In this document: piece by piece, positions 241-4,248 of the stretch | Layout: every line of letters starts with the position of its first letter | How positions within the stretch are numbered: position 1 is the first letter of the stretch | Source: a virus | DNA: 42,980 nt | Virus record (IMG/VR): IMGVR_UViG_3300025110_000031 | Span: 1 to 42,980 of that record | Direction: 5' to 3' (one strand) | Translations under genes and position numbers: made by a program | The notes under the pieces: generated by a model | Told to the model about the DNA's origin: nothing | The model's input: only the letters and a program-made list of their open reading frames with translations | The model's database searches: none

Positions 241-759
241 TTAGTATGGAACGTCATCGGGGTTCGTAACTGAATCAACGTACCCACCTTCGACTGGAGA
301 CATTGTGATTCCGCTAGTGCCCTCTACCAAATCCACAATTTGAATACTCTCCAGATAACAGCTTACGGCTGGAGCCTTGGGGTCTTTGCCCGACTTAACC
401 GTGACGTTAGCCACCGTTCCGGGGCCAATCCGTTTAAGTAGCTGCTCTTTAGCCTCGCCCTTAATTTCGCGACCTGAGGAATCAAAGAGCCCAAACTCGA
501 ACTTGGTGCGCGATGTGCGGTAGTGCCCCCACTCCGGGGTTGGCTTGGCAGCTCCCTCCCTATCGATCCGATCTTTCCCGTGCTTGTACGGAACCCCGAT
601 CTCGTCGAGCTTTGCGGTGTTCTCATCATCAATTTTTGAGATTTGAACACCGTATGCCCCATTTGACTGTGGATCAGGCTCCGCGAGGTGCGGGTAGTTC
701 AGGGTGACGTTGTTGATTTGGCGGCGTCCGCCGATTTCTGCTTCGTTTTTCTTAGCCAT
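241..759 (-). CDS. Single-stranded DNA-binding protein-like (DUF2815/gp2.5-like)
   Basis: Probably coats single-stranded DNA during phage replication and recombination. The 172-residue protein starts with a basic stretch (MAKKNEAEIGGRRQ), then has a beta-rich body with NVTLNYPHLAEPD near residues 17-29 and GAYGVQISK, which resembles the opening of phage SSB-like DUF2815 proteins. The C-terminus (TNPDDVPY) is acidic and ends in an aromatic residue, like the protein-docking tip of bacterial SSB (DDDIPF) and T7 gp2.5. It lies eight bases after the RusA-like gene in an operon that also holds DnaB, which fits. No clear Shine-Dalgarno (SD) sequence precedes the ATG; the spacer is A-rich. The family call rests on pattern, not alignment. 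Confidence 0.6.
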   Translation of the reverse strand: MAKKNEAEIGGRRQINNVTLNYPHLAEPDPQSNGAYGVQISKIDDENTAKLDEIGVPYKHGKDRIDREGAAKPTPEWGHYRTSRTKFEFGLFDSSGREIKGEAKEQLLKRIGPGTVANVTVKSGKDPKAPAVSCYLESIQIVDLVEGTSGITMSPVEGGYVDSVTNPDDVPY

Positions 760-767
760 ATTTTTGT

Positions 768-1103
768 TTAGTTTTTTATTTTTCTCAGTGTGATGAGGAG
801 ACCTTCCTCACCTTTGGGAACTTTTCGTACGCGAATGATTTTCATCGGAATCTCTTTCCAGTTGTCATCAGTCGGAAGGGATTTTGGTAATGCAGTCGCA
901 GACTGTGGCGAGCACTCCGTCGAGGTCTCTGCGGCGGTTGTCTGACACAAGGACTTCCACATATAGGACATAGCCTCCGTAGCCCGTACCATCCAAGCAT
1001 GTACCTTCGGCTCCGTGATCAAGCGGCCACGCGCTATCATTTTCCGGTTTTTGAAAGCCGGGCAATGACCCATCCCTGTAATGTGAAATACTATGTCCTT
1101 CAT
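768..1103 (-). CDS. RusA-like Holliday junction resolvase, split over two frames
   Basis: RusA enzymes cut Holliday junctions. This frame has 111 codons, and its ATG overlaps the DnaB stop as TAATG, indicating translational coupling. Residues 11-45 look like a RusA N-terminus (GHCPAFKNRKMIARGRLI, then a WMVRATEAM helix). Residues 79-108 look like a RusA C-terminus (DDNWKEI, then KGEEGLLITL). The middle, residues 46-78, is Ser/Thr/Gln-rich and lacks the catalytic Asp cluster. That cluster (RRRDLDGVLATVCD) is present in the -1 frame at 871-963. A canonical enzyme would need a -1 shift near 961-970 and a +1 shift near 866-880. Alternatives are an assembly error pair or a natural variant family translated straight through; I recall similar variants but cannot confirm them here. 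Confidence 0.6.
   Translation of the reverse strand: MKDIVFHITGMGHCPAFKNRKMIARGRLITEPKVHAWMVRATEAMSYMWKSLCQTTAAETSTECSPQSATALPKSLPTDDNWKEIPMKIIRVRKVPKGEEGLLITLRKIKN
871..963 (-). other. Alternative-frame segment encoding the canonical RusA catalytic motif
   Basis: In the -1 frame relative to the RusA-like gene, this stretch encodes a beta strand YVEVLVSD followed by NRRRDLDGVLATVCDCI. This matches the RusA family pattern of a basic run, D-x-D and then a helix, with acidic residues that bind the catalytic metal. The frame is open from 1110 and stops at 868-870, inside the codons for the DD of the main frame. The two frames therefore meet exactly where a RusA protein should pass from the catalytic helix to its DD motif. 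Confidence 0.6.
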
Positions 1104-2446
1104 TAAGCATGACTCAGTTCAAAGTCTGGGTGCTTAGGGCGCTCCATCTCGACATACGGCGCATCAACTCTTGGGTTTACATAGCGCGTGTATTGAGGTT
1201 GGAACTCCAGATCCACAATGGCGCATGGGCCGTTGCGGTTTTTAGCGATGTTTAACTGGGTCAAATCAGACTCAGCATCTTCGCGGTAAAGGAACGCGAC
1301 CAAGTCGGCGTCTTGCTCTAAGGAGCCAGAGTCCCGAAGGTCAGAGAGTCGCGGGCTGCGAGCTTGCTGATCGTTTGCCCGGCTCAGTTGGGAGAGCGCC
1401 AAGATCGGAACATCCAACTGTATCGACAGCGCCTTGAGTTGCGCTGAAACTTCAGCCACCTCGCGCTCACGCTTCTCAGCGCGGCCATGAATTAACTGAA
1501 TGTAATCAACAACGATGAGCTTGCAGCCGTATTTATTTACAAGCTGGCGGATTCGGGCTGATGCCTCAGAGATTCCTATGCCCGAAGCATCATCAATATG
1601 AATACCGGAGTTGGCCACCTTGGAGTAGGCGACAGTAAGTTTCTTCAGGTCGCGCTCGCTGAGTTGTCCGTTGCGAAGATTGCGACCATCGATCTCAGCC
1701 ATTGAAGAGAATGTCCGCAGCATCAGCGCGGTCGATTTCATTTCCAAAGACATCACGCCAACTGGGATTCCTTGCTCGACGGCGAGGTTCTGGGCGATGC
1801 ACATCGCGAGGGATGTCTTCCCCATCGATGGCCGGGCTGCTAGGATCAGGTATTCGCCACCATGCAAACCAGTCGTGAGGCGGTCGAAGGCGGAGAAGCC
1901 AGTTGCTAAACCAGTACACTCGCCCGTGTGGGCGTGCGCCTGTTCGATAATACGAAGGGTCTCTTGGGCGATATCCTTCGTACTGACCTCCCCGCCTCGA
2001 CCTACATGAAGAAGACCCGTGAGGGTTGATCCGAGCTTCTCCAGCTTCTCTTCATCACCACCACCTGTTTCGCCTAAAATATTTTGCAGCTCATACGAAC
2101 CCTTTTGGATTCTCCGTAGTTGAACCTTGTTGCTCAGAACCCGGAGCGCCTCAGGCAGATGGGCGGCGCTGGCGACCGTGTTTTCTAAATCGGCCAAATA
2201 GGCTATGCCCCCAACAGCCTCCTTACTGCCGTGGATTTCCTCAGCGCGACTGAGAATTGAAAGTTTATCAATAACGCGCCCGGAGTCGGCCATGTCCACC
2301 ATGATCTCGTAGAGATTCATGTGGCGTAGTTCAAAGAATGCATCGGATCCGATGGCCTTCGTCACGTCATCCAAACAGGATGGCTCTTGTAAAACGCAGC
2401 CAAGAACGGCCCGCTCCTCCTCAATGTTGTTTATCAGTAGTTCCAC
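1103..2446 (-). CDS. dnaB: DnaB-type replicative DNA helicase
   Basis: Hexameric 5'-3' helicase that unwinds DNA at the phage replication fork. The 447-residue protein has the N-terminal helical domain (residues about 1-105, starting EEERAVLGCVLQ), a linker, and a RecA-like motor. Walker A is ARPSMGKTS at 204-212, SLEM is near 233, Walker B is LIVVDYIQL at 310-318, and LALSQLSR follows at 349-356, then DLRDSGSLEQDAD. The start is GTG at 2446, preceded by an excellent SD (AAGGAGGG, six-base spacer). It overlaps the end of the upstream RHH gene by 26 bases and shares one base with the RusA-like start. No primase domain or separate primase or loader is seen, so host primase is probably used. Confidence 0.95.
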   Translation of the reverse strand: MELLINNIEEERAVLGCVLQEPSCLDDVTKAIGSDAFFELRHMNLYEIMVDMADSGRVIDKLSILSRAEEIHGSKEAVGGIAYLADLENTVASAAHLPEALRVLSNKVQLRRIQKGSYELQNILGETGGGDEEKLEKLGSTLTGLLHVGRGGEVSTKDIAQETLRIIEQAHAHTGECTGLATGFSAFDRLTTGLHGGEYLILAARPSMGKTSLAMCIAQNLAVEQGIPVGVMSLEMKSTALMLRTFSSMAEIDGRNLRNGQLSERDLKKLTVAYSKVANSGIHIDDASGIGISEASARIRQLVNKYGCKLIVVDYIQLIHGRAEKREREVAEVSAQLKALSIQLDVPILALSQLSRANDQQARSPRLSDLRDSGSLEQDADLVAFLYREDAESDLTQLNIAKNRNGPCAIVDLEFQPQYTRYVNPRVDAPYVEMERPKHPDFELSHA

Positions 2447-2615
2447 AGTTAACCCTCCTTTTTTTCTCTATGCCCTCGCGGCAAAGCCGCCGAATTACGT
2501 CACTTCGAGTCGTTTCCCACTCCTTGGCTAGACATTCAATGTCCAACAGGAGTTTAGGAGGGAAACGTAGGGCAATTGATTGTTTCTTTGGCACTTCCAC
2601 CTTGGAGGGGAACAC
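2421..2615 (-). CDS. Ribbon-helix-helix (Arc/CopG-type) DNA-binding protein
   Basis: Likely a dimeric transcriptional regulator and the first gene of the DnaB-RusA-SSB operon. The 64-residue product has a beta strand (QSIALRF), helix 1 (PKLLLDIECLAKEWE) and helix 2 (TRSDVIRRLCREGIEKK), the RHH order in which the strand contacts the DNA major groove. The start is uncertain: no ATG exists in frame, GTG at 2615 gives the full length, and GTG codons at 2600 and 2594 are alternatives, none with a good SD. Its end overlaps the DnaB start by 26 bases. It diverges from another RHH gene across a 120-base region containing the palindrome CATTGCAATG, a candidate operator. Confidence 0.7.
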   Translation of the reverse strand: MFPSKVEVPKKQSIALRFPPKLLLDIECLAKEWETTRSDVIRRLCREGIEKKRRVNCGTTDKQH

Positions 2616-2710: not shown

Positions 2711-2735
2711 TTTCGTCAGTTTGTAATGCGTGCGT

Positions 2736-2933
2736 ATGGCGAAGAAGGCGAATAGTTCAAAAGAATTGAAGACCGCAACGGCTTTGCGGCTTGAAAAGGA
2801 TATGATTCGGCGCATCGACGAGGTGGCGAAGCTACAAAATTCTAGTCGGACAACTGTGATCGAGCAGTGCCTAGAGTCCGGTCTCCCGAAGCTGAAGAAG
2901 TTTTTTGAGGAGTTTCAGGAAGGCCGAGACTAA
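2736..2933 (+). CDS. Ribbon-helix-helix DNA-binding protein
   Basis: Small basic DNA-binding protein, likely a repressor or regulator. From the ATG at 2736 (MAKKANSSKELK) it has 65 residues; an in-frame GTG at 2730 would add two. The core reads as strand (TATALRLEK), helix 1 (DMIRRIDEVAKLQN) and helix 2 (SRTTVIEQCLESGLPKLKKFF), a clear RHH pattern. It is transcribed away from the replication operon, and its last 92 bases overlap tail-to-tail with another small RHH-like gene on the minus strand. As a short regulator divergent from the early operon and next to the integrase, it is one candidate for a lysogeny-control protein, which is inference from position. Confidence 0.7.
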   Translation: MAKKANSSKELKTATALRLEKDMIRRIDEVAKLQNSSRTTVIEQCLESGLPKLKKFFEEFQEGRD

Positions 2934-3105: not shown

Positions 3106-4248
3106 CTAATTGTTTATTTTCTGCACATTTGGCAAAACACCCCAATATTCAGCGGCCCTTTTGGGCTTAACAACCGTCCGGTAGTGCTTAAAAAGCATAT
3201 CGTAATCCCCGTGGCCAAGGTTCTGAATCACCTTTTCCTTACCGTCAACGGGTAGGGAGTAGCTTGCAAAGCAGTGCCGAGCGGCATCGTGCGGCCAAAA
3301 CCCTAGAACCTTCTTGGCTTGGTTCCATCCGTTATCCCAGTTGGTCACTGGAGTGGGCTGATCCTTGGCGAACTTGAGCCACGCCACTAGGGTTGGATTC
3401 ATCTCAATGTATCGGCGCTGTCGATCTTTGGCGTGGGCCGCCGGGACGAACAGCAGATTCTCCTCAAAATCAACATGGCCCCAGTCAAACAAGCTGGCCT
3501 CTCGGTCGGGGCGCAGCCCGGCAAAGAATAGGGCGGCGGCGCGGGGTGTCATGTCCGGGCGGTTTTCGACGATCCAGTCCATGACCTTACGCACTTCCTT
3601 GGGAGTCAGAATCTGGGCCTCAGCCTCGACCTCCTTTAGTTCATCGATGCTGGGCTTAAAGGTCGGGATTTCGTCGCCGACATTTTTCCCCACGATGTGG
3701 TTTTCTTTGGCCCAATTCAGGAAATTTTTAATCTCAGTCAGGTAGCCATTCTTGGTTCGCGCCCGCGCTGGCTTTTGCCCGGTCTTATCGGTCAGTCTGT
3801 CCAACCAGTTTTTAATGATGGCCTTGTCCAGCTCGACAACTAGGCGAACATTGGTGGCCGCCTCCCATCGCCGGATTACCGAGCGAAGGTTTTTGAAGGA
3901 AGCATGACCGATCTGCGCCTCGCGCTCCTTTAGAAACAAATCGATTGCCTCGTTGAACTTCTCCGCCACCGGAGAATTGGCGATGTAGTCGGCATAATAA
4001 TCAACGGCCTCCAGTACCGAGAACCTCATCTCGGAGGCGCGGGCAGATGCCAACACCAGCTCGGCACGCTGAACTGAGGATAGCGAAGCCAAGTCCTCAC
4101 CAAGCCGGGAGTTGGCTGAGGTTAGCTCATCCATTCTGGATTGGGCCTCTTTGCGGCTGAGGAAATATTTGCGATGGCGCTTTCCACCAGATGCATAATT
4201 CAGGACAAATCGGTGGCCTCCTTTTGTGTTTTCGCTATAGATTTTCAT
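3106..4248 (-). CDS. int: Tyrosine recombinase / phage integrase
   Basis: Catalyses site-specific integration and excision at the adjacent attP. In 380 residues there is an N-terminal arm-binding part, a core-binding SAM-like domain (about 95-190: FKNLRSVIRRWEA...YLTEIKNFLNWA) and a catalytic domain with R246 (GLRPDRE), K274 (AHAKDRQ), H320 and R324 (PHDAARH), H346 (LGHGD) and the nucleophile Y356 (KHYRTVV). The ending, AAEYWGVLP, resembles integrases I associate with Verrucomicrobiota. The start is ATG at 4248; its upstream bases (ACCTGACGAGTA) form a 12-base repeat also found beyond the attP core. Transcription likely comes from the promoter at 4353-4379. I see no excisionase by sequence; a small RHH protein could fill that role. 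Confidence 0.95.
   Translation of the reverse strand: MKIYSENTKGGHRFVLNYASGGKRHRKYFLSRKEAQSRMDELTSANSRLGEDLASLSSVQRAELVLASARASEMRFSVLEAVDYYADYIANSPVAEKFNEAIDLFLKEREAQIGHASFKNLRSVIRRWEAATNVRLVVELDKAIIKNWLDRLTDKTGQKPARARTKNGYLTEIKNFLNWAKENHIVGKNVGDEIPTFKPSIDELKEVEAEAQILTPKEVRKVMDWIVENRPDMTPRAAALFFAGLRPDREASLFDWGHVDFEENLLFVPAAHAKDRQRRYIEMNPTLVAWLKFAKDQPTPVTNWDNGWNQAKKVLGFWPHDAARHCFASYSLPVDGKEKVIQNLGHGDYDMLFKHYRTVVKPKRAAEYWGVLPNVQKINN

Follow-up and report, generated by a model that had tools for sequence, protein, structure and literature searches.

Gene pairs in overlapping reading frames whose products act together are known from phages, an example being the embedded two-component genes for the spanins Rz and Rz1 of phage lambda. 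In programmed frameshift genes, such as those of phage tail assembly chaperones and IS elements, homology continues in another reading frame. The locus described here consists of two overlapping frames, f0 and B, which carry different parts of a RusA-like resolvase. With Rz/Rz1 it would share the joint action of the products of overlapping frames, but Rz and Rz1 are separate folds, whereas here the pieces of one fold appear to be interleaved. With programmed frameshift genes it has in common that homology crosses frames, but it lacks a conserved slippery site, both of its frames are open nearly throughout and have starts of their own, and the RusA segments overlap in the DNA. The RusA family itself (E. 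coli RusA, 1Q8R/2H8C/2H8E; phrog_34) shares with the locus the strands and helix of the N-terminal core (N-core), the RRRDLD segment, the DD pair, the C-terminal strands and the setting in a phage replication module; the differences are that the segments are split over two frames of the same DNA, that no complete single ORF exists, and that the equivalent of Lys76 is unconserved. The known enzyme, by contrast with the f0/B locus, is a homodimer built from a single chain of 120 residues.

The window, i.e. the whole stretch of DNA that was analysed, is a virus record of 42,980 bases, and the locus lies on its minus strand (Table 1). Frame f0 (MKDIVFHITGMGHCPAFKN...TDDNWKEIPMKIIRVRKVPKGEEGLLITL) has an N-terminus (GHCPAFKNRKMIARGRLITEPKVHAWM) and a C-terminus (DDNWKEIP...KGEEG) that resemble RusA. 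Frame B, the -1 frame relative to f0, encodes YVEVLVSDNRRRDLDGVLATVCDCI and ends (...YVLYVEVLVSDNRRRDLDGVLATVCDCITKIPSD) at the point where f0 reads DDNW. An earlier sequence-only reading had placed the ends of RusA in f0, the catalytic motif in the -1 frame and the stop of B at DDNW, all of which is confirmed by translation. Beyond that reading, B is also open upstream as far as an ATG of its own, seven bases before the ATG of f0.

Table 1. Positions of the f0/B locus, its parts and its neighbours in the window
Feature	Position	Strand	Remarks
ORF f0, 111 aa: RusA-like N-part, shadow linker, RusA-like C-part	768..1103, stop 768-770	-	ATG at 1103; protein conserved in 42 aligned relatives
ORF B, 80 aa: first half unconserved, then RusA catalytic strand and helix	868..1110	-	ATG at 1110, stop TGA 870-868
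f0 residues 4-52, RusA N-core: three strands and 21-residue helix alpha1 (GHCPAFKNRK..LITEPKVHAWMVRATEAMSYMWKSL)	948..1094	-	AlphaFold2; evolves as f0 codons
B residues 47-74, RusA strand and catalytic helix YVLYVEVLVSDNRRRDLDGVLATVCDCI	889..972	-	Evolves as B codons
Catalytic Asp codons in B	927-925 and 921-919	-	
Dual-read stretch, RusA structure recognisable in both frames: end of f0 helix alpha1, start of B catalytic strand	948..972	-	
f0 shadow of the catalytic part (CQTTAAETSTECSPQSATALPKSLP): predicted disordered, conserved beyond the requirement of B	873..947	-	pLDDT, simulated identity
f0 residues 76-111, RusA C-part LPTDDNWKEIPMKIIRVRKVPKGEEGLLITLRKI; DD pair matches the region of the third catalytic Asp	771..878	-	
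dnaB, replicative helicase, directly upstream	1103..2446	-	Pfam DnaB_C E=1.8e-82; TAA stop overlaps the f0 ATG (TAATG)
172-aa ORF, downstream of f0	241..759	-	No Pfam match in the window copy

In the relative L003, the ORF at the place equivalent to the 172-aa ORF has a weak match to the Enc34 ssDNA-binding protein (E=5e-4, below the curated cut-off). Some further features of the window should be mentioned. A 380-aa ORF (3106-4248, minus strand) has a C-terminus like that of tyrosine recombinases (HDAARHCFASY...LGHGDYDMLFKHYRTVV) and no Pfam match, and is possibly a divergent phage integrase. Small divergent ORFs at 2421-2615 (minus) and 2730-2933 (plus) resemble ribbon-helix-helix regulators, the minus-strand ORF being without a Pfam match. 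Two very large ORFs of 1963 and 2583 aa lie on the plus strand of this 43-kb phage contig (13502-19393 and 31757-39508).

A profile of 14 composites, each consisting of the f0 N-part, the B middle and the f0 C-part, matches E. coli RusA (1Q8R) with E=0.0013, and the B profile alone does so with E=0.0029, both matches being weak in absolute terms. The RusA-like resolvases of phrog_34 were matched by 13 of the 14 member composites (best E 1.2e-7). Against RusA families, the straight-through f0 proteins of 42 members gave no match. No composite reached the threshold of the Pfam RusA model, so that the evidence for homology comes from PHROGs, from the profile search of the PDB and from the motif. 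AlphaFold2 predicts strands at residues 4-9, 21-24 and 27-30 of f0, a helix at 32-52, disorder at 61-77 and a C-terminal strand; block means are mostly 80-89 over residues 4-52, and pLDDT falls below 50 at residues 61-77. When this model was compared with 350,542 PDB chains, E. coli RusA took the first three places, although the E-values (0.8-2.9) were weak. For B, a leader helix and the catalytic helix are predicted, with the strand region unpaired.

The RDxDG motif is nearly invariant in B, the exceptions being L109 and L119 (RDASG/RDNSG). The DD pair, in the region of the third catalytic aspartate (Asp91), is encoded in f0 in members with two frame switches and in B in members with a single switch, while L118 has KD. 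Lys76 is catalytic and essential in E. coli RusA (Bolt 2000, as cited in PMC3485210); its equivalent is not conserved, B having Ala or other residues at that position. No single polypeptide showed RusA homology over the N-core, the catalytic part and the C-part, and only the two-frame composite matches. Judged by sequence, the parts are those of RusA, yet the gene falls outside basic membership of the RusA family, because no single ORF holds the whole enzyme.

The family is one of environmental phages. It comprises about 50 genes, which form 24 clusters (nucleotide identity below 70%), and every relative found, including those with no more than about 35% protein identity, has the two-frame layout. 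The f0 protein as query led to L003 (58% identity), where the layout is the same. Searches with parts of the locus gave the same picture: the DNA pattern of the B motif alone was found in 41 viral stretches, and in nearly all real members f0 encodes both the N-part and the C-part, and B the catalytic part between them; the f0 N-core alone found 34 loci, of which those newly met were inspected and have the two-frame layout; and the B catalytic segment alone found 38 loci, all two-frame. A single-frame copy of the family was not found with f0-only, B-only or pattern queries. In L029, L047, L053 and L075 (L047 being cut by the contig end before the N-part) the C-part is encoded in B and not in f0, so that one switch takes the place of two.

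Outside viral records the family was hardly met. A pattern search of 84,980 bacterial and archaeal species genomes yielded only two members, one from a bin of Hydrogenedentota and one from a Turneriella bin; of the 27 pattern matches in bacterial genomes, all but L068 and L075 are spurious. The f0 profile finds L068 in its whole genome at E=1.8e-36, and f0 searches of 68 genomes from the phylum of L068 and of 388 genomes from another phylum found only L068 itself and no match, respectively. No members were found in the cultured-phage and plasmid collections INPHARED and PLSDB. A match of the f0 protein in the Gordonia phage RemRem, antisense to a CDS, was discarded as chance. The sequence-only reading had mentioned database proteins with a straight-through middle, and the searches found that such proteins exist, as homologues.

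It was then asked how often a second frame stays open when the synonymous codons of the coding frame are randomised. Across the catalytic segment, f0 is open in 24/24 clusters, whereas 4.9 are expected (P=4e-21), and across the f0-coded N-core B is open in 24/24 clusters versus 4.2 expected (P=3e-21). The third frame behaves as chance predicts and is open in 2 and 2 clusters (expected 2.9 and 4.0). For all members of the first set the counts were 42/42 for f0 (5.4 expected) and 39/40 for B (6.2 expected); as a control, long neighbouring genes gave 85 open windows with 82 expected. Within the N-core, a third-base T that would create a stop in B occurs at 2/193 codons, versus 109/583 at other codons. 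The avoidance of B stops extends for about 12 codons after DD (5/119 versus 42/208) and is then gone (20/103 versus 17/83). One member, L045, has two B stops within the N-core.

The N-core and the C-part vary like f0 codons, and the middle varies like B codons, amino-acid identity over the middle being 0.64 in B and 0.48 in f0. The codons of the three motif arginines are AGR/AGY in a ratio of 41/1 versus CGR/CGY in a ratio of 56/28 (p=3e-5, uncorrected for relatedness), a skew that is explained by the amino acids of B and not by f0. Nevertheless, f0 also appears constrained over the middle: its identity is 0.412, versus 0.242 +- 0.004 in simulations that preserved B and the openness of f0, with peaks of selection at a consensus S-Q-L-x-S-L-x-Q-T (z up to 33) in the dual-read stretch and just after it. 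The shadow of the N-core in B has little beyond stop avoidance (identity 0.329 versus 0.289 simulated). It should be noted that the identity simulations take no account of common descent at synonymous sites, where change is close to saturation, and that the openness test on 24 clusters is much less exposed to this. As the excess over simulated identity indicates, f0 is under amino-acid selection inside the catalytic region too, and sequence evolution establishes two overlapping protein-coding frames. The suggestion that the off-frame motif is conserved and under selection was thus borne out by the relatives, the openness of both frames and the codon variation; in the comparison of homologues for purifying selection in both frames, both proved to be selected as proteins, and no homologue with a one-frame-only layout was found.

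Each frame typically has its own start. In most members B has a start of its own and a conserved leader upstream of the f0 ATG (MPTWTQSELENYERLCGH or MPRWTAEELKAYEDR), and f0 usually has its own ATG; in the group of L010, a GTG for B precedes the f0 ATG by four bases (GTGAATG). L035 and L049 have a B start only inside the N-core and, like others, are without the B leader, and L045 has one only at an ATG adjoining the catalytic part. An ATG/GTG at -48 as the sole B start was rejected, since the open B frame reaches far upstream in nearly all members and since several have no start at -48. Most start sites of the family are without a Shine-Dalgarno motif; in L029, an AAGGAG (1834-1839) precedes a TTG (f0) and an ATG (B) that are five bases apart and could share it. 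The leader, M[PGA]xW[TS]xExxxxYxxR, is a predicted helix that is conserved without a counterpart in f0 (L026, L030, L036-L039, L051, L055, L058, L105-L114). A search of phages with the leader gave no match. The leader may serve to dock another replication protein.

The best explanation, which we regard as probable, is that f0 and B are two fully overlapping genes, both translated, the products of which jointly supply one RusA-type nuclease fold. Since the two open frames carry different and complementary pieces of RusA, the enzyme is probably assembled from two proteins, and we infer a two-chain assembly into a RusA-type nuclease. The more specific form of this explanation, to which we give little better than an even chance, is an interleaved split enzyme: strands and helices would be encoded alternately by the two frames, two co-translated chains would interlock to form the active site, and some nucleotides would be used twice, for helix alpha1 of one chain and for the catalytic strand of its partner. 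Translation of f0 and B would begin at neighbouring starts on one message, after dnaB. Strands 1-3, helix alpha1 and the last strands would come from the f0 chain, and the catalytic strand and the DLD helix from the B chain; neither chain alone would hold all catalytic aspartates. In single-switch members the B chain would carry the last strands as well, and this is consistent with an assembled enzyme that is cut at different loops. The assembled enzyme may serve Holliday-junction or fork processing in the phage replication module, with DnaB upstream and a possible ssDNA-binding protein downstream.

The strongest competing explanation, although unlikely in our view, is programmed double frameshifting: translation would start in f0, slip by -1 into B before the catalytic strand and return by +1 near DD, giving one continuous RusA, and members with the C-part in B would need the first slip only. 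The order f0-B-f0 in which the composites match RusA would be accounted for, as would the four members that need only one -1 switch. A -1 heptamer near the first switch is present in 17 of the 48-50 members (17/48, with about 7 expected), mostly within groups of close relatives, so that frameshifting is possible in some members. However, a conserved slippery site near the first switch was not found, the window has no heptamer there, and RNAalifold yielded no consensus RNA structure from -60 to +66 around the switch. Three successive +1 shifts were also considered and dropped, as the third frame carries stops there.

The lengths of the RusA pieces also speak against a simple pair of shifts. To cover the RusA homology, f0 must be read to the end of helix alpha1, and B must be read from a point about 12 codons ahead of the motif. 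These segments overlap by about 9 codons, so that part of the enzyme would be missing after a simple -1/+1 shift. With a simple -1 shift, about 23 residues separate the helix Trp from the first catalytic Asp, whereas a count on the known E. coli RusA sequence gives about 36; even a composite that uses the overlap twice falls about four residues short of RusA. In three members, overlap-twice composites scored higher than simple-shift composites (28.8 versus 24.9, 26.7 versus 20.2 and 21.0 versus 16.8 bits), and they extend the RusA match into the N-core. Frameshifting would, in addition, have no need for the avoidance of B stops far upstream of the first switch and for 12 codons past the second, for a start and leader of B, or for selection on f0 that continues past the switch. 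The earlier reading had left the choice between double recoding and two proteins from one gene; the latter is the better option, and double recoding is not favoured in view of the B stop avoidance, the start and leader of B, the f0 selection past the switch, the overlapping pieces and the single-switch relatives.

Less likely still is a pair of overlapping genes with separate functions, in which f0 would be a catalytically dead relative of RusA, for example a regulator or a junction-binding protein, and B a separate small protein, without a joint enzyme. Selection on both frames as proteins would be expected, and the RRRDLD motif is indeed missing from f0. However, the RusA segments in f0 and B are complementary and not duplicate, the unpaired strand and the helix predicted for B would not be expected to fold alone, and in single-switch members the C-part has moved to B while the N-core and the catalytic part are still kept apart. 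A constraint at the nucleotide level, such as RNA structure or codon bias, that mimics dual coding while only one composite protein matters is very improbable: synonymous sites in the middle do vary less than free sites, but the cluster openness test largely refutes it, stops being avoided in exactly one extra frame, and neither the missing conserved RNA structure nor the choice of AGR over AGY, which tracks the amino acids of B, agrees with it. A sequencing or assembly error or a decayed gene, suggested by a frame break that looks like a pair of indels, is refuted by the selection on both frames and by the recurrence of the break in about 50 genes, which come from many contigs as well as from two bacterial genome bins, and the earlier judgement that simple sequencing error was unlikely has held up.

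No literature on RusA frameshifting, a split RusA or such an arrangement was found in a search that had many subscription journals and the bioRxiv preprints outside its scope; PRFect (PMC10885494) lists RusA/RuvC in passing only. With respect to annotation, an ordinary single-frame RusA (ATLPWPPSVNHYW...DRRRRDLDNILKAVLDALVHAGVLQDDSQVSG) is present but unannotated in the Thermus phage Riverbug (PQ109080.1, L086; 1346-1700), where the record calls Riverbug_39 in a different frame over it. At the f0/B locus, a gene finder that allows one frame per locus would list f0 as hypothetical and overlook the nuclease. If recoding should operate instead of two-chain assembly, the family would show a double shift that is conserved although no known slippery signal accompanies it, and this would be equally unexpected. 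If the two chains do interlock, the locus would represent a naturally split enzyme whose parts are encoded in frames that overlap fully, and dual-coding evolution, co-translational assembly and the control of a potentially toxic resolvase would become directly testable.
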